A DNA stretch of 24,461 bases from a virus. This document shows positions 1 to 15,714 of this stretch, in pieces. Location: positions 1 through 24,461 of IMG/VR virus record IMGVR_UViG_3300037847_000987. One strand, written 5' to 3'. The position numbers were made by a program, and so were the translations under genes. The notes under the pieces are model-generated. The model ran no database searches. It was given only the letters and a program-made list of their open reading frames with translations, and was not told the origin of the DNA. The number at the start of each line of letters is the position of its first letter. The first letter of the stretch is position 1.

Positions 1-252
1 TGCATATAAGAATGTTTCACCATCAGCGTAATCGTGACCTGCATCTAATAACTTCTGCAAACCTTCACGTAGCTTTGAAGATGTTACTTGGTTATCTGTT
101 CCAAGAGTTACATCATTACCAGTCGCAGACTGAAGTACATCCACTGCCAAGTAGTTTTCAACCTTCTTAGCTAATGCATAACCCATAGACTGAGCATATG
201 CACCAAAAAGGTTTGCAGACTCTTGGACGCGAACAATATCTTCAATACGTTT
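1..252 (-). CDS. Major capsid protein, exon 2 (partial, runs off the left edge)
   Basis: This is the continuation of the major capsid protein after the intron. Read on the minus strand from 252, it starts KRIEDIVRVQ and gives 84 codons with no stop up to the window edge. The stretch I-E-D-I-V-x-V-Q followed by a Y-A-x-x-M-G-Y-A-L-A-K-K-V segment is the usual central part of HK97-fold capsid proteins, so the assignment rests on the join with exon 1 (483-752). There is no start codon or ribosome binding site at its upstream end, only the intron 3' end. The C-terminal part lies outside the window. Capsid identity is inferred from these motifs and from the position directly downstream of the scaffold-like gene. 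Confidence 0.85.
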
Positions 253-482
253 CAATCGTTATTGCCTAGCTCTTTATCTAGGCTCTCCACATTTCTATGG
301 AGTATCGGACTATCTCTTCACCCAGTATGGGTGTCGCGGTCTCTTGGGTAGATTATTTCACTACCTAGTCTCTGCGGCTGGCTTACGCCTTCACCTCTGA
401 TTGCCTTATCTTTCGACTTAGGTTTCCAGTTTTTTTCCGCAATCATAATAAGCATAATTACTTATGCAAACGCCAAATTAAT
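253..482 (-). ncRNA. Group I intron (group IA-like, no ORF) in the major capsid gene
   Basis: On the minus strand this 230-nt insert has the group I core. P4 is TGCGG (441-437) with CCGCA (377-373). P5 is CTGG with CCAG. P7 is GACTA (370-366) with TAGTC (312-308). Between P7 and P3' a GGTAG/CTACC hairpin (365-347) looks like P7.1, as in group IA phage introns. P8 is CACCC/GGGTG (333-319). P9-type hairpins are CTCCA/TGGAG (302-285) and GCCTAG/CTAGGC (283-264). A GCATAA/TTATGC hairpin (467-452) may be P2. The 5' splice site follows GAAGCT, whose last U can pair with the G of GGC (474-472) as the P1 U-G wobble. The intron ends in G (253). The TTT beside GGC can pair with AAA at the start of exon 2 (P10). 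Splicing keeps the frame. No homing endonuclease is encoded. Exact splice points are inferred. Confidence 0.9.
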
Positions 483-752
483 AGCTTCGTAATGATGTTG
501 ATCAACAGTAATGGTGACTTCACCATCAGTGTTGTTTGTGTAAGTTACCGCACTTCCTGCGGATTTTGCGGCGGCAGTCTCCTCTGTTACCTTTGGTATA
601 TGGAGTACATCTCCAGAAGGTAATTCGGATGAAAAGTCCATCACCTGGTTACGCAACTCAAACTTACGCTCTGCGTAGTCTAAAATTGCGTCACGCCATA
701 ATTCAGGGATGAACTTAGCCGCGGTGGTAGTTGTTACGTTACCATCAGCCAT
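483..752 (-). CDS. Major capsid protein, exon 1
   Basis: These are the first 90 codons of the major capsid protein. The ATG at 752 follows an AAAAGGA Shine-Dalgarno. The N-terminus has the usual capsid pattern: a short Thr-rich arm, then a F-I-P-E-L-W segment and D-Y-A-E-R-K-F, then P-K-V-T-E-E-T. Without splicing the frame runs six residues into the intron and stops (462-464), giving a useless 96-aa peptide. Removing 253-482 joins ...DQHHYEA to KRIEDIVRVQ, which restores the usual capsid spacing from the Tyr to the IED motif. It lies just downstream of the scaffold-like gene in the head operon. The protein forms the icosahedral shell. Confidence 0.88.
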
Positions 753-8326: not shown

Positions 8327-10177
8327 TTAATCAATAAAATCATCTAATTCTGTTACAATTTTACGATAATTTCCATGATCTATCTTGCGTATTAATCCTT
8401 GATCCTCTAGTCTTTTTAGCCATCCATACACTGCATTATTACTACTCAACTTCATCACACTCTCCAGCGCAGACGCAAACGCAGTGGTACTAAAATTATG
8501 ACCATCTGTCATAACCGCAGCAAGCACTCGTTCTTCATTAGACTCCTTTGGATCACTATACCAATACATCTCATTTTTAGGAAGTGGCTTCATATATTTA
8601 AAATACAATTCACGCCGATCCTCTTCATCAATATTAATCATCTTAATTCCAACTGGTACATTATGCAACTCGTTATGACTGCGCACCTTTGTTATCTTCA
8701 TTACCTTTAATCCAGGAACACGCCTAGCATCGGCCATTTGCACCAAACAATCCAAGAAGTTAGAATACGCAGATCCACCTAACAACTGCGATACATCCAG
8801 TGGAGTCATCTCACCAATCTTTTTATGATGCGACACCAACACAATAGCCACCTTATGCCTTTTCTTTATATTCACAATCTTACGCAACAACTCCATTATA
8901 TCCGAGTTCTTAGACATCGACAACTGCGTACTCGTATACAAATTATCTACTACCAGCACATCATATTCTTCATGCACTAAATTAGCGTCAATTATATCCC
9001 ATTTATCCTGAAACAAATTCGATTGCCCATCACCAGTAAAGCGCAGGTTCTTATCCAGATTGTCCGACTCAATTGGGTACTGATCCATCAACGGCTTACT
9101 CACATTCTTAATCAATCCACTAAAACTCTCATCCTTCAACTCAAACTGCACATGCAGCACACGCTGCGCAGTAGGAATCCGATAGTTCATAAACGGCACA
9201 CCCATAGCAAGGCACATCGACAACTGCAAACTAAACACCGACTTACCCACATTCGTACCACCTGCGATACCCATAATATCACCATCATAAAACAATGAAT
9301 CGATAATCGGCCTTGGCAACTGATTAAATGTGGTCCGAAACTGCGACATGCTAAACGACTGCATGCCACCTAGATCCACCGCACTTTCACCATACCTAAC
9401 ACACAAACTAAGCAGGTTTTCCAGCGTATTACCATCACTAAACCAGTCAGTTATATCATAGCCAGAAGGTTTATCTTTCCAATCAACGGCATACAACTCC
9501 AATTCCTTAGAAAACAGCCGTTTTGCTACCTTTTTCGAGCCTTCTATACCTTTTTCATCGTTATCGTATATAATATATAGTTTATTATATTGTGATGGCA
9601 AGGTTACTTCAGCAGGCAGCGCACCTGCACCAGACGTAAACGTGATCGCAGGTGCGCCTTGGCAGTATGCGGTGACTACATCCTTTTCACCTTCGCACAA
9701 TATAAGATAGTCTTTGGAGAGTTGCGGAGTTCCAAACATCTTACACTGCGCATCACCGAACTGCTTTCCTTTATGATGCTTTACATGATTATCATTGATT
9801 TGAAATACTAACTGTGGCTTACCATCATCATTCTTTCGCACGCCTACAGGCATTTTAAGACATTGTTCATTCCAAGGCAGATCCATAGCCTTTACAAATT
9901 TTTCCCATCCATTTATAAATGCATTACGAGCATCTGCGTAGCCACCTTTGTCTACAGATACAACAGCCTTGGTATTGCTTAATACGTATTCTTCTCTCTT
10001 GTGTATTTTCTCATCTTCATCAAAATGCCATGTTTTCTGACACTTATGGCAAAAGGCATAATCCTCATTAATAGTTACTGTACCTTGAGGACGATTAGAG
10101 CCTAGATCACACTCAGGACACCAAGCTCGTAACCGATTATTTGATATGCGAGTAAATACATCCTCTAGACGAATCAC
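8327..10177 (-). CDS. Bifunctional primase-helicase
   Basis: A 616-aa replication protein. A zinc-binding primase N-terminus has C20-P-E-C23 and C43-H-K-C46. A TOPRIM domain follows, with the acidic motif C-E-G-E-K-D (E162, E164) and I-Y-D-N-D-E (D205, D207). The C-terminal half is a RecA-fold motor: Walker A GGTNVGKS (306-313), Walker B V-L-V-V-D-N (D411), and a V-S-H-H-K-K loop with a Q-L-L-G-G-S-A-Y motif. The last about 70 residues look like a winged helix (Y-G-W-L-K-R-L-E-D-Q-G-L-I-R-K). The layout matches T7 gp4-type or RepA-like phage primase-helicases, with an added C-terminal winged helix. The start is GTG at 10177, overlapping the nuclease stop as GTGA. It should unwind DNA and make primers at the fork. 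Confidence 0.93.
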   Translation of the reverse strand: MIRLEDVFTRISNNRLRAWCPECDLGSNRPQGTVTINEDYAFCHKCQKTWHFDEDEKIHKREEYVLSNTKAVVSVDKGGYADARNAFINGWEKFVKAMDLPWNEQCLKMPVGVRKNDDGKPQLVFQINDNHVKHHKGKQFGDAQCKMFGTPQLSKDYLILCEGEKDVVTAYCQGAPAITFTSGAGALPAEVTLPSQYNKLYIIYDNDEKGIEGSKKVAKRLFSKELELYAVDWKDKPSGYDITDWFSDGNTLENLLSLCVRYGESAVDLGGMQSFSMSQFRTTFNQLPRPIIDSLFYDGDIMGIAGGTNVGKSVFSLQLSMCLAMGVPFMNYRIPTAQRVLHVQFELKDESFSGLIKNVSKPLMDQYPIESDNLDKNLRFTGDGQSNLFQDKWDIIDANLVHEEYDVLVVDNLYTSTQLSMSKNSDIMELLRKIVNIKKRHKVAIVLVSHHKKIGEMTPLDVSQLLGGSAYSNFLDCLVQMADARRVPGLKVMKITKVRSHNELHNVPVGIKMINIDEEDRRELYFKYMKPLPKNEMYWYSDPKESNEERVLAAVMTDGHNFSTTAFASALESVMKLSSNNAVYGWLKRLEDQGLIRKIDHGNYRKIVTELDDFID

Positions 10178-10830
10178 AGCGCACTGCGCAACTTATTTAG
10201 TGCGCAGCAATGCTTGAAAACCTGCGCACCAGCGTCTAGCTTTTTGCGATCAATAACATGTTGATGAAACTTGCCATCTTCCTTTCCAAAACGCATTATG
10301 ATACCATGAGATACTTTAGCCTTCGGCTGCGCAGCTTCGTACATCATAGTATATGCACCTAATTGAACAATCATTTCTGGGTATGGTCCACCTTTTGACG
10401 TTTTCCAATCTACCACAATCAATTCATTATCTTTCTTCGCAATGGCATCCACTGTACCTCCAACCTGCAACTCTTCATTTACCAGAACCAGTTCACTGGC
10501 TAATATTTTTATGCCTGCGCCTTCGTACCATTCTTTAAAACCAAAGAATGCTTTGAGTGCTTTTTCTTCTTGATTAGGTGTGAAATCACGTGTGTCAACA
10601 TCAAAACCTTGGAAAAAACCTTGTATTAATAGGTGTGTCAACGTTCCTATACGACCTGCTTCACGCATCACTGCATCTGCATCCTCACCTTGCGCAGTCA
10701 TCCGCTTTGCCCACGCAATCAACGTATTCTTATTCCATCCCAACATAGCGTTGATAATGGTAGTTACAGAACTAGCACGATTGCCATTCTGAAGGACATA
10801 ATTTTGTCCATGTAGCTTTGTTTTACTCAT
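10174..10830 (-). CDS. PD-(D/E)XK nuclease, RecB/Cas4-like
   Basis: A 218-aa nuclease. It carries the RecB-family pattern: an early T-H-L-L-I-Q motif (His66), E113 in A-S-E-L-V-L, G-G-T-V-D-A-I (D128), then I-V-V-D-W-K-T-S-K (D141, K143) and a Q-L-G-A-Y-T-M motif (Q156). These are the catalytic and motif III residues of exonuclease-type PD-(D/E)XK enzymes. It is translationally coupled to the primase-helicase (GTGA overlap), pointing to recombination-dependent replication or end processing. No separate recombinase gene is obvious nearby. Start ATG 10830. Confidence 0.9.
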   Translation of the reverse strand: MSKTKLHGQNYVLQNGNRASSVTTIINAMLGWNKNTLIAWAKRMTAQGEDADAVMREAGRIGTLTHLLIQGFFQGFDVDTRDFTPNQEEKALKAFFGFKEWYEGAGIKILASELVLVNEELQVGGTVDAIAKKDNELIVVDWKTSKGGPYPEMIVQLGAYTMMYEAAQPKAKVSHGIIMRFGKEDGKFHQHVIDRKKLDAGAQVFKHCCALNKLRSAL

Positions 10831-10936: not shown

Positions 10937-11087
10937 ATATATCCAATAACATTTCTTTTATTTCTGCTAATTCTTTATGTATATACCAGCGCATCAAATA
11001 ATGATATACAATAAGCAGCACTGCGATGTATACTAAGGTAAATACATCAAATCCATTCTCGGATAGTGATTGTAGCCAAAAACTCAT
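10920..11087 (-). CDS. Small single-span membrane protein (55 aa)
   Basis: ATG at 11087 overlaps the methyltransferase stop as ATGA and is preceded by AAAGGAG at good spacing, so translation is very likely. The 55 residues comprise a short N-terminus, a transmembrane segment F-T-L-V-Y-I-A-V-L-L-I-V-Y-H-Y-L-M, and a charged helical C-terminus (H-K-E-L-A-E-I-K-E-M-L-L-D-I-Y-D-D-I-N). The topology could suit a membrane regulator or holin-like partner, but a single span in a replication operon is not diagnostic. Confidence 0.7.
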   Translation of the reverse strand: MSFWLQSLSENGFDVFTLVYIAVLLIVYHYLMRWYIHKELAEIKEMLLDIYDDIN

Positions 11088-12118
11088 AATAACTCCTTTA
11101 TTTTCCTGGCTACTGCTGCGACTACATCCACAGTCACTGCATTACCAGCTTGTTTATATCTTTGTGTATCACTAATAGCAACCTTCTTACCATCCAACAA
11201 TCCAAACTCATTATGATTATCTGGAAAGCCTTGTAAGCGCATACATTCCACAGGCGTAAGTCTGCGTATGGAAGTTTGATTAATTTTCACTCCATGCTGA
11301 TCTTGTTGGGTAAGCGTAAACATATCTTCGCCATATTCTTTAAATCTGCGACCATTTTGTCTTTTATTTGCACGATTTGGTGTTAATACTGGTTGAATCA
11401 TCATCGGCACATTGTTACCGCCCATTCCCATCTGACTTGAAAGGCAAGGTGTTTCTCCTGGTACTTTGTGGTAACGTATTGCTCTGCCACCATCGGCACG
11501 TTTGCCATCAAAACTGCGTTCTGTGAATGTTTGTATTAATTTTTTTTTACGTTTTGATTTAAACGATTTATCATCTCTTCCGATAGGAAATACCGATCGT
11601 CCACCTCTGTCTCCAGTATATCCGACAAGGTATAACCGCTCTCTATTTTGGGGTAAAAACCAGCGTGTATTAAGCAGTTGCCATTCGAGTCTATAGCTCC
11701 CAATGTTGGTAAAGGCTTGGATAATTGCCCAAAAGTCTGCGCCATCGTTTGAGGAGAATGTTCCTTTAACATTTTCCCAGACAAAAACACGTGGTTTGCA
11801 CTCAGTGATAAGCCTAATTGCTTCCCAAATAAGAGAACTGCGCGTTCCTTGAGTTGCCCCAGCGCGCTTTCCAGCGATACTAAAATCTTGGCAAGGTGAT
11901 CCAAAAGTGATAATGTCGATTTTGGGAAGGTTTTCTGATCGAATAGATTTAACATCTCCTAACTCCTCTGCAAATGGATTATTATATTTATATACTGCGC
12001 TGGCATATTTGTCTACCTCGGCAAATCCAACGTAATCAAACTCAAAGCCTGCACGTTCAAAGCCTAAATGGAATCCACCTATTCCACTAAATAGATCTAA
12101 AAATTTCACACCTGACAT
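11084..12118 (-). CDS. DNA (cytosine-5) methyltransferase
   Basis: A 344-aa C5-cytosine DNA methyltransferase, counted from the ATG at 12118, which has TTGAGG upstream; in-frame TTG 12139 and ATG 12133 are alternatives. All key motifs are present. Motif I is F-L-D-L-F-S-G-I-G-G-F, and motif IV is G-S-P-C-Q-D-F-S with catalytic Cys76. Motif VI is W-E-N-V-K (115-117 ENV), and motif VIII is Q-N-R-E-R. After a target-recognition region come R-R-L-T-P-V-E-C-M-R-L-Q-G-F-P (IX) and Q-A-G-N-A-V-T-V (X). It transfers a methyl group from SAM to cytosine, probably to protect phage DNA from host enzymes. No cognate restriction enzyme is recognised; the target cannot be read from the sequence. Confidence 0.95.
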   Translation of the reverse strand: MSGVKFLDLFSGIGGFHLGFERAGFEFDYVGFAEVDKYASAVYKYNNPFAEELGDVKSIRSENLPKIDIITFGSPCQDFSIAGKRAGATQGTRSSLIWEAIRLITECKPRVFVWENVKGTFSSNDGADFWAIIQAFTNIGSYRLEWQLLNTRWFLPQNRERLYLVGYTGDRGGRSVFPIGRDDKSFKSKRKKKLIQTFTERSFDGKRADGGRAIRYHKVPGETPCLSSQMGMGGNNVPMMIQPVLTPNRANKRQNGRRFKEYGEDMFTLTQQDQHGVKINQTSIRRLTPVECMRLQGFPDNHNEFGLLDGKKVAISDTQRYKQAGNAVTVDVVAAVARKIKELL

Positions 12119-12166
12119 GGCTGCCTCAACCATAGCCAAACCAAGGAATCTACATTTATCATCCTT

Positions 12167-12403: not shown

Positions 12404-12614
12404 TTATCTCTCTCCTTACTTTGTTAGTTATATCTACTTCAGAGCCATCAAACAATATCTGCGCAGCAAACAATAGCTCTCCACCTCTCCTTAAACTTTT
12501 TAATTTTTTAAGGTCTTTAATTAAATCTTTTAAGTCTAGCCTTGTAATCACCTCATCGGCTGTTTGTAAATCTTCAGTATCATACTGGATACTACCTGCG
12601 TAATATTCTATCAT
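12396..12614 (-). CDS. Small hypothetical protein
   Basis: ATG at 12614 overlaps the stop of the PP-loop ATPase gene as ATGA, which decides the start over an in-frame ATG at 12638. The 72 residues look helical: an acidic N-terminal half (Y-D-T-E-D-L-Q-T-A-D-E-V), a Lys/Leu-rich helix (L-I-K-D-L-K-K-L-K-S-L-R-R) and an amphipathic C-terminus. I recognise no family. It sits in the DNA-modification part of the operon. Confidence 0.6.
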   Translation of the reverse strand: MIEYYAGSIQYDTEDLQTADEVITRLDLKDLIKDLKKLKSLRRGGELLFAAQILFDGSEVDITNKVRREING

Positions 12615-13387
12615 AAGCCACAAAATCCTTCTTCGCACATAAACAATTCCTGTTGATCTGCAAATTCTATTCTTTCTAATGGTATTAGCGATCTATGTAA
12701 ATACATTTTATCTTTTAAACCTCTCTTTGATGAATCTCTTATAGCATGATCTACTTCCACGCATTGCTGCCATTCTTTTGGGTGATTATCTTTTATATCC
12801 TTCCAGTTTTTGTCTGAATGATAAGGACAAAACGTACAGGATGACTTAGGTGGTGTTGGAAAAGAAAATCGCTCAAAAACTTTTATACAATCTCCTCTAC
12901 TCATTCTTTTATCTATTAATGGATATTTATAATCAATTCTTGGTAATTGACTTTCTTTCATTCGTTGAATTTCATCTAAAGTAATACCTAGCCACATTTC
13001 TGTTTTTGGCATTCTTTGTCGTGGTTTCAAACCATGCAATTCTCTCACCTTCTTAATCACTGGCTGTATCTTGTATTCGCTAGTACACTGCCTTCTCACC
13101 ATTCCACCAGTTTCACTAAAGGCAGGTATAGATGCCCATCTTTGACCAGTGCTATTTTGTTTTTTTAAAATATCTTGTAATAAATTTTTTTTATTAACTA
13201 CATGTATTGGTATACCATCATTACATTTTGCCCACTCCTGTAACATTTCTAATATTTCATAGGTCCTTGGTAACTCTGCGCCAGGATCAGCAAAAACTGC
13301 GTGATCTGCTCTCTTAATCATTTTAATACTACTTAAAAAATATAAAGCAGTGCTTTGCACACCTAAACCAAGTGAAATCACTTTCAT
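12611..13387 (-). CDS. PP-loop ATPase, PAPS reductase / adenine-nucleotide alpha-hydrolase family
   Basis: A 258-aa protein. The N-terminal S-L-G-L-G-V-Q-S-T-A-L (residues 5-15) is the PP-loop nucleotide-binding signature in the form seen in phage PAPS-reductase-like proteins, and F-A-D-P-G-A-E follows at the expected distance. A middle R-R-Q-C-T-S-E-Y-K-I segment and a C-terminal K-S-S-C-T-F-C-P-Y-H carry Cys residues that may hold a metal or iron-sulfur cluster. True sulfate assimilation is unlikely in a phage. Family members activate substrates by adenylation in RNA or DNA modification, and the neighbours (two methyltransferases, an Nmad1-like protein) make a base-modification role attractive. 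That role is inference. It overlaps the upstream stop as TGATG. Confidence 0.8.
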   Translation of the reverse strand: MKVISLGLGVQSTALYFLSSIKMIKRADHAVFADPGAELPRTYEILEMLQEWAKCNDGIPIHVVNKKNLLQDILKKQNSTGQRWASIPAFSETGGMVRRQCTSEYKIQPVIKKVRELHGLKPRQRMPKTEMWLGITLDEIQRMKESQLPRIDYKYPLIDKRMSRGDCIKVFERFSFPTPPKSSCTFCPYHSDKNWKDIKDNHPKEWQQCVEVDHAIRDSSKRGLKDKMYLHRSLIPLERIEFADQQELFMCEEGFCGL

Positions 13388-13773
13388 CAGCTAAACTCTG
13401 GAAACCTTTCGTAAGAATAAAACCACTTTCTGCCTTTGCTCTGATTATTCTTACCTGTACTCAGCGCAAGGCACAATCCATGCGTATTTTCATATGGTAC
13501 ATACGCAACTATATCTTTAGGTACATAATACACTGCCACCACATCAACGCGTCCAGTATTGCGATATTTACTAAGGTTTATTTCTATCGCTGTGCCTCTA
13601 GATACTTCAACTACTGACTTGACCTGCACACGCTTCATTGCACCATTAGTCATCTCAACTACCAGATCTACTTGATCTGCATCTACAATAGGATGATACA
13701 CATTATAACCTTGTAAAATTAAATCTTTTTGTACTGCTAGTTCACCCAGCGCACCTTTAAATTGACTCAGCAT
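13387..13773 (-). CDS. PD-(D/E)XK endonuclease, resolvase-like
   Basis: A 128-aa protein with a small restriction-endonuclease fold: G-A-L-G-E-L-A-V (Glu11), D-A-D-Q-V-D-L-V-V-E (Asp36), then K-R-V-Q-V-K-S (Gln50, Lys52), the E...D...QxK arrangement of Holliday-junction-resolvase-like and group I intron-associated nucleases. It could resolve recombination intermediates or cut specific sites. It overlaps the next nuclease gene upstream by 17 bases and leads directly into the PP-loop gene. It is one of four PD-(D/E)XK proteins in the operon. Confidence 0.8.
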   Translation of the reverse strand: MLSQFKGALGELAVQKDLILQGYNVYHPIVDADQVDLVVEMTNGAMKRVQVKSVVEVSRGTAIEINLSKYRNTGRVDVVAVYYVPKDIVAYVPYENTHGLCLALSTGKNNQSKGRKWFYSYERFPEFS

Positions 13774-14257: not shown

Positions 14258-14564
14258 GTGGATTTTCCTTATCGATCGCAGCCAAAAGCACCATGTAATT
14301 TGCCACATCGAGACAACGATTGTATGTGGTTTCATCACTATGGGTTTTGCCTGTCTTTGCATCGTTAGCCAGCGCATCAACATGTTTCAATACATATACC
14401 ATTAGTGCCTGCTTTGGTGTAATTCCAAGCCGATCCGCTACGTGCTTAAAATTGTATAGTTTATCATCATTGCTAATGGTATACTCGATTGATTTGTTAT
14501 CACTTACCTCAGATGCAGTTTTAAAAAAACTATCTCTTAATTGATTAAATTCGTTGTATTTCAT
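14151..14564 (-). CDS. Nmad1-like (nucleotide modification-associated) protein
   Basis: A 137-aa protein. Residues about 41-97 read [16 protein letters not shown], a K-H-V-D-A-L helix, then [14 protein letters not shown], the pattern of the Nmad1 / DUF1599 family found near DNA-modification genes in phages. The family's exact activity is not established. The last 40 residues are Ser/Asn-rich and overlap the start of the downstream nuclease in another frame, so they look like an unstructured tail shaped by the overlap. The ATG at 14564 overlaps the Dam stop as ATGA. Confidence 0.65.
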
Positions 14565-14962
14565 TTTTTACCTGAATGTTTTAAAATTAACAAAAAGCAT
14601 GGTTGCCTCTCAAATTTTCTTGCTGGATTTGGTTCATTATCTTCTAATGCCAACCATTTTGGTAAACCTGCATATCTAATCTCTGCTCCATATTCACCTA
14701 AAACTGCAATCGGTCTAGTCGCAAAACATGGTAAAATAAATATTACATCTTTTCCGAGCTCGTACTCAGATATGCCTTTACGCACCCATTTCATTACACC
14801 ACCTACAAATGGTGGATTTACATAGTTACACTTACCCCACTCCACTGCCAAACCATCATAACCTTCTGGTCTTGGATGTGGACATGGATCATAGTCAAAA
14901 TTAAACTCATCATTTAATTGTTTCATTAGATCTGGTGGTGTTGCCCAATATCTTTTTTTCAT
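14561..14962 (-). CDS. Phage-type DNA N6-adenine methyltransferase
   Basis: A 133-aa enzyme of the short phage Dam family. The N-terminus has the typical Y-W-A-T-P-P-D-L-M opening, F-D-Y-D-P-C-P follows, and the catalytic motif is N-P-P-F (residues 49-52). A hydrophobic V-I-F-I-L-P strand and F-L-L-I-L C-terminal strand complete the fold. It should methylate adenine in DNA with SAM; GATC is the usual family target but is not shown here. It is translationally coupled on both sides by ATGA overlaps. Together with the cytosine methyltransferase it gives the phage two distinct DNA methylation activities. Confidence 0.9.
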
Positions 14963-15137: not shown

Positions 15138-15326
15138 CTAATTAGTTATGTTACAGCATTTTTTATTTTTCTTACCACTATCACATGGACAAGGATCATT
15201 ACGACCAACCTTTGGCGCAGATCTTTGTATTGTTTTTTGTGATTTTAAAAATTGATAATATTTGCCCCATCCACCAATCTTTCTTATAAATGCACCACTA
15301 TGCTGTTTTTTAGTGTCATTAGTCAT
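15138..15326 (-). CDS. SEC-C motif protein
   Basis: A 62-aa protein from the ATG at 15326, which has AGGAGAGAG upstream (the frame is open further up, inside the neighbouring gene). The C-terminus [18 protein letters not shown] is a SEC-C zinc motif, as in the tail of SecA and several small proteins. The usual Gly after C-P-C is Asp here. The rest ([11 protein letters not shown]) is short and basic. The motif binds zinc and often a protein or nucleic-acid partner. Role in the phage unknown. It overlaps the Hjc-like gene by eight bases. Confidence 0.8.
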
Positions 15327-15714
15327 TTTCTCTCTCCTTAAATTTCGCGGAGTCTTGACTATCACGATCATTAGACACGCCATTTTCTTGGTTATGGGTT
15401 TCTACGACTCCGCGTTTAAATAAATTTTTCATCCATGAATGCTTTGCAATCCATAGCCAAGGCTTTCTATCTTGCCTGACCATCACTACATCTGCATTCT
15501 TAAAATCTAAAAATCCTGCGATTTTTTTTCTTCTCTTGACTTGTACCAAGATGGTAAGATCGCCTTTTGTAGCCTTGACATCTATATCACTCTTTTCGCC
15601 AAAGCTGCGCCCATCACTTCCCCATGAACGCTCGGCGGTGAAGCCAAGATCGCGGAGCAATTCTACGACCTCGACTTCACCTTTGTAGCCTTTTCTGGAT
15701 GCGGAAGAAGGCAT
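15319..15714 (-). CDS. Hjc-like PD-(D/E)XK nuclease (Holliday junction resolvase-like)
   Basis: A 131-aa protein. [15 protein letters not shown] (Glu13), a G-S-D-G-R loop, K-S-D-I-D-V-K-A (Asp45), then [10 protein letters not shown] (Gln58, Lys60) give the classic archaeal Hjc / VRR-like nuclease order. It probably cleaves branched DNA made during phage recombination and replication. It lies just downstream of the SSB-like gene, three bases after its stop codon. The last 30 residues are polar and probably disordered. Confidence 0.82.

Follow-up and report, generated by a model that had tools for sequence, protein, structure and literature searches.

How does an intron with no gene inside it come to occupy several positions of one and the same gene? 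The question is raised by a 230-nucleotide (nt) segment in the major capsid gene of an uncultured phage (IMG/VR record IMGVR_UViG_3300037847_000987, positions 1 to 24,461; the whole stretch of 24,461 nt is referred to as the window). Both the intron and the capsid gene lie on the minus strand. Introns without open reading frames (ORFs) and about 98% identical to each other are found at three positions of this phage gene, with a fourth copy at 86% and with intron-free relatives alongside. We conclude, with a probability of about 0.7, that the window segment is a self-splicing intron from an ORF-less family which relocates mainly within phage capsid genes, most likely by reverse splicing.

The intron and the interrupted capsid gene

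The interrupted gene consists of the following parts:

483..752, minus strand: exon 1 of the major capsid gene, codons 1-90, ending in ...GAA GCU (from the ORF list; the spliced product matches phrog_267)
253..482, minus strand: group I intron, 230 nt, without an ORF, omega-G at 253 (from RF00028, the family model R1 and empty sites)
1..252, minus strand: exon 2 of the major capsid gene, codons 91-174, the record ending inside the gene (from the ORF list and a profile match)

The intron splits the gene between codons 90 and 91, with U preceding it and G as its last base. Given that U must close the 5' exon and G the intron, only one placement of the boundaries is possible, 483/482 and 253/252. 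The capsid protein has 289 amino acids in full-length relatives. The original prediction claimed that removal of the segment restores a continuous frame, HHYEA-KRIEDIV, and indeed the protein of the joined exons matches the profile phrog_267, 'major head protein', with E 2.2e-19; exon 1 by itself reaches 8.6e-11, and exon 2 by itself gives no match.

Capsid relatives were taken from IMG/VR (429 confirmed stretches, of which 80 were kept), and nearly all of them are uninterrupted across the junction. The intronless ones read GAAGCN/AARNGNAT with no insert, whereas the window has GAAGCT, the 230 nt and then AAACGTAT; relatives 99.6% identical in exon 1 have the empty site GAAGCG/AAGAGAATC. This alignment of intronless homologues across 252/483 demonstrates an exact empty site, and the predicted ends of the intron, 253 and 482, are correct to the base. 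The family model finds nine introns in seven of the 80 relatives and none in the other 73 within the stretch examined. The frame is intact at every junction checked.

A covariance search with the Rfam group I model, as had been suggested, yields a match to RF00028 over the whole model length (47.8 bits, E 3.5e-11) when the E-value is relaxed. As the gathering cut-off of RF00028 is 50 bits, the default search is silent on the window intron, and at default settings Rfam gave no group I match either for the window or for nine loci that bear family members. The signal is recovered only by the relaxed search and by the purpose-built family model R1, which assigns to the window intron 259.8 bits, the training set including the window copy.

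The structure was drawn by hand on the window sequence and scored over an alignment of 18 relatives. Helices P2, P3, P4, P5, P6, P7, P7.1, P8, P9 and P9.1 are supported: 96.5% of the cells form standard pairs, a percentage biased toward the window sequence as the template of the structure, and both sides have changed in 30 of 53 pairs, a count unaffected by this bias. The covariation score is 0.528 versus 0.194 after shuffling (0 of 500 as high) and 0.05-0.08 when the structure is slid. Covariation backs the core helices P3, P4, P6, P7 and P8 of the group I fold. The minimum free energy of the window intron is -65.1 kcal/mol, with a z-score of -4.2. The helices are, all on the minus strand:

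452..467: P2 hairpin, GCAUAA-GUAA-UUAUGC, holding an in-frame stop UAA at 464-462
334..442: P3, 442-437 with 339-334, 100% of cells paired, double changes in 2 pairs
376..429: P4 (429-426/400-397), P5-P5a (422-415/410-404) and P6-P6a (395-387/382-376), double changes in P4, P5 and P6
308..370: P7 (370-366 with 312-308), the P7.1 hairpin (365-347) and P8 (332-320); P7 and P7.1 are 100% paired, with double changes in 2 and 4 pairs, and P8 is 98.6% paired
264..302: P9 (302-285) and P9.1 (283-264) hairpins, double changes in 5 pairs each

P4, P5, P7, P7.1, P8 and the two P9-type hairpins had been recognised in the original prediction; P2 (467-452), P3 (442-437/339-334) and P6 had been overlooked. 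P7 is GACUA/UAGUC in the window and GCAUA/UAUGC in other intron types. Extra P7.1/P7.2 hairpins between P7 and P3 are a mark of subgroup IA, and hence the window intron, with its single P7.1 hairpin, most likely belongs to this subgroup. Within the 230 nt there is no homing-type internal endonuclease gene, as there is no internal ORF. Judged by the covariance model, the covariation and the empty-site comparison, the segment is, as predicted, a group I intron that lacks an endonuclease gene, and it is almost certainly spliced in vivo.

Capsid positions of the intron type and the guide-exon match

The phylogenetic tree places the window intron type in one clade (support 100/99) spanning codons 17, 90, 108 and 118 of the capsid gene. 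Its members are the copies at codon 90 (the window, L082, L094, L109), codon 108 (L095), codon 118 (L087) and codon 17 (L110); the intron of L098 is identical to that of L095, the intron of L101 is identical to that of L087, and L128 and L129 are further carriers at codon 90. In close phrog_267 relatives, identity with the window is 97.4-99.1% for the introns at codons 90, 108 and 118 and 76-94% for the exons. The copy at codon 17 in L110 has 85.9% identity to the window intron. The L109 intron is 91.7% identical to that of the window, while the capsid protein is 30-43% identical and the exons have no significant DNA similarity. Other intron types occupy codons 17, 25, 118 and about 259.

Each of the three configurations is found in at least two different assemblies: the window junction is present again in L082 and L094, the one at codon 108 in L095 and L098, and the one at codon 118 in L087 and L101. 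Chimeric origin of the multi-site contigs was considered and rejected, since each junction recurs in separate records. The intron family very probably relocates between sites, and the near-identical copies can be taken as unusually clear natural evidence for relocation without a DNA-cutting enzyme of its own.

The sites were then compared through the pairings that the intron makes with its exons:

472..485, minus strand: P1, 5' exon GCU 485-483 with guide GGC 474-472, the U.G pair (U483-G474) being at the splice site
475..477, minus strand: P10, intron UUU 477-475 with 3' exon AAA 252-250

For the family, the reading frame together with capsid homology set the position of 27 junctions, a few being chosen among nearby options partly via group I rules. 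In all 27, a guide triplet close to the 5' end of the intron pairs with the last three exon bases (exon/guide GCU/GGC in 10, GGU/GCC in 12, GAU/GUC in 3, GUU/GAC and AUU/GAU in 1 each). When exons were shuffled and the guide position re-optimised, the mean was 11.4 and none of 5000 permutations reached 27. The P10 pairing, which was not used for junction placement, is formed in 82 of 108 pairs family-wide versus a permutation mean of 52.5, again with 0 of 5000 as high; the permuted rows in both tests share kinship, and hence these are not strict probabilities. The splice-site U.G pair and the terminal G (G253 in the window), both foreseen in the original prediction together with P10, are alike in 27 of 27 family members. 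The apparent exceptions, L088 and L103, are resolved by the reading frame, which puts their splice site at AAGGU.

Wherever codon 90, 108 or 259 is occupied it reads GCU, and the exon of the codon-118 carriers also ends in GCU. The empty alleles of close relatives have GCU in 0 of 41 cases at codon 90, 4 of 42 at codon 108, 30 of 44 at codon 118 and 5 of 38 at codon 259, those of codons 90, 108 and 259 being mainly GCA or GCG. The copies at codons 90 and 118 pair AAA with UUU; the codon-108 copy has no P10 match, which hints that it may be a newcomer.

Further family copies were gathered by core-motif scans of IMG/VR, a 5'-end scan and the family model, and their genes were assigned by flanking tblastn. 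Capsid genes hold 85 of the 106 copies, and a second copy in L128 is very close to the start of the capsid gene. The capsid copies occupy at least 20 positions in four capsid PHROG families, phrog_267, 1328, 544 (a weak match) and 9953, and in 16 loci a single capsid gene has two or three introns. These numbers count copies and not events: certain contigs come twice from one record, and a single inherited insertion is common to several records. The non-capsid copies are in terminase genes (L083, L104, probably L113), in a probable major tail protein gene (L086) and in genes of unassigned function. The capsid preference is real within these data; its size is uncertain, as capsid introns supplied the scan motifs and their share is thereby inflated.

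Some loci have a particular organisation. A phrog_1328 capsid gene with three introns is located at 4846-5911 of L091 (reverse complement), and another, with two introns and an exon of about 30 nt between them, at 3663-4190 of L096 (reverse complement). In L093, three family introns lie within 0.9 kb (1394-2266) in a gene that is not identifiable. The member at 1748-2202 of L108 (minus strand) is 455 nt long and has a big insert in the P5/P6 region containing internal repeats. The contig L083, with its terminase intron, also has an int-alpA small RNA at 2566-2633 (RF02996, 42.8 bits).

In known phages, a DNA search with the window region yields short core matches only, and matches of the B-type intron are confined to Aeromonas jumbo phages and a single Exiguobacterium phage (71-73% over partial length). 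The closest capsid proteins come from cyanophages (25-30% identity), and the closest terminases, with Pelagibacter phages among them, are about 30% identical. More distant family members reside on six bacterial contigs (L122-L127) from metagenome-assembled genomes of Clostridia and Selenomonadales; these contigs are probably prophages.

Possible routes of relocation

Endonuclease homing moves an intron between homologous flanks. Since matching flanks are needed, homing alone cannot place one intron after codons 90, 108 and 118, whereas for reverse splicing a guide match suffices, and this is what the sites share: close intron relatives at different sites have only the guide-exon match in common, as is expected of introns spread by reverse splicing. 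The proposed sequence of events is as follows. The intron would excise itself from the capsid mRNA, allowing the 289-residue capsid protein to be made; ribosomes on unspliced RNA would halt at the UAA in P2, ahead of the catalytic core. The guide triplet of the freed intron RNA would pair with GNU in the abundant capsid mRNA, and reverse splicing would follow. The inserted RNA would be converted to DNA by a reverse transcriptase of outside origin, and the DNA copy would recombine into the phage genome. Late capsid mRNA, being abundant, would be the likeliest RNA target, and this abundance may account for the capsid preference.

Several observations weigh against this scheme. Splicing itself needs U at position -1, so the constancy of this base alone is no proof of reverse splicing, and GCU at the occupied codons fits insertion at such codons and survival there alike. 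Constraint on the ribozyme accounts for part of the high identity of the copies. The absence of HNH, GIY-YIG and HNH_3 domains from 25 intron-bearing records speaks for the scheme; however, these records are mostly fragments and LAGLIDADG was not included in the search, which limits what the absence can say about partner enzymes. RVT_1 was not found in the 25 records either, and the reverse transcriptase would have to come from the host or from another element. Finally, the window encodes nuclease-like proteins, common in phages, that are possible partners:

10174-10830, 13387-13773 and 15319-15714 of the window: three PD-(D/E)XK-type proteins (PDDEXK_1, PDDEXK_5, Hjc-like)

With these points taken into account, we put reverse splicing as the route of relocation at roughly even odds.

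The PD-(D/E)XK proteins bear on the alternative of ordinary DNA homing aided in trans by a free-standing endonuclease, known as collaborative homing, in which the varied positions would result from relaxed cutting. Some ORF-less phage introns are mobilised in this way, the partner enzyme cutting one conserved site (reviewed in PMC3984707). The window family is likewise made of ORF-less phage group I introns, and its codon-90 copies in very diverged phages (the window versus L109, L128 and L129) resemble homing to a conserved site. However, no partner of the tested families was found in the 25 mostly fragmentary records, the same intron follows codons 90, 108 and 118 without the homologous flanks that homing requires, and the common target of the sites is only GNU matched to the guide. 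Thus this alternative seems unlikely.

The intron could also be retained for regulating capsid output, for example by translation-coupled splicing late in infection; a link of this kind between splicing and capsid supply was put forward in the original prediction and is one of its weaker claims. The in-frame stop near the 5' splice site, seen in the capsid-gene members checked, would shield the catalytic core from ribosomes and agrees with such a role; however, the intron is dispensable for capsid expression, as 73 of the 80 close relatives do without it in the stretch examined, and we regard regulation as an improbable reason for its presence. Less probable still is a static, vertically inherited intron that has not moved recently and owes its positions to numerous independent acquisitions long ago. 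While some types keep to one position within a lineage, as the B type does at codon 17 in six close records and the C type near codon 259, recent relocation is needed to explain how near-identical copies, all in one clade, came to three positions of genes 76-94% identical, and the tree does not group the introns strictly by site. That the segment is an artefact of assembly, or a decayed insertion disrupting the capsid gene, can practically be discounted even though the Rfam score is slightly below the curated cut-off, given covariation in every helix, the intact frame at all checked junctions and the same junction in the independent assemblies L082 and L094.

Near positions 2700-3533 of L099, an intron adjoins a dUTPase gene and a reading frame for an HNH endonuclease; the family may have had an endonuclease-carrying ancestor, of which this would be a remnant. 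Other proteins of the window are a C5-cytosine methylase (11084-12139, 7.9e-70), a weak Dam-like methylase (14561-14962) and a weak PAPS-reductase-like protein (12611-13387).

Relation to known introns and significance

The original prediction placed the known phage group I introns mostly in replication, nucleotide and lysis genes; introns in phage capsid genes are not new, however. Mycobacteriophage LittleE has a probable group I intron in its major capsid gene, with splicing shown, and a 156-bp piece of it recurs at 98% identity in a tail-gene intron of related phages (PMC3706429). The likeness to the window is in the type of intron and gene. Unlike the window copy, the LittleE intron is 819 bp long, has a LAGLIDADG-like gene and occupies a single capsid position (PMC3706429); the comparison concerns organisation and not sequence relation. 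In the crAss-like Delta and Zeta phages, group I introns reside in the genes of major capsid proteins, one Zeta capsid gene being in five pieces (PMC7886860). Here, too, core structural genes are the hosts; however, these introns were found via endonuclease domains, and no single ORF-less intron at multiple positions of the same gene was reported (PMC7886860).

A parallel in distribution is provided by the group I introns of fungal ribosomal DNA, for which spread by reverse splicing was argued: related introns are present at different sites, and short guide-exon pairing is the proposed targeting (PMC1299323). Those introns are in nuclear rRNA genes, whereas the window family has copies about 98% identical across sites of a phage mRNA gene. 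According to a review, the complete reverse-splicing pathway is without direct experimental evidence (PMC3984707). Our literature search, which covered few subscription papers, revealed no report of a single ORF-less phage intron at several positions in one gene.

As the family scores under the Rfam cut-off, automated annotation would call such capsid genes truncated. Copies of about 230 nt and a readable target rule make the question of relocation testable in a small phage-type system. More tentatively, this endonuclease-free lineage may be regarded as an RNA-level phage transposon, which would reverse-splice at any GNU matched to its guide, mostly in capsid mRNA, and be copied back to DNA. 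If this is true, transposition at the RNA level would yield capsid genes with up to three introns, at no fewer than 20 positions.
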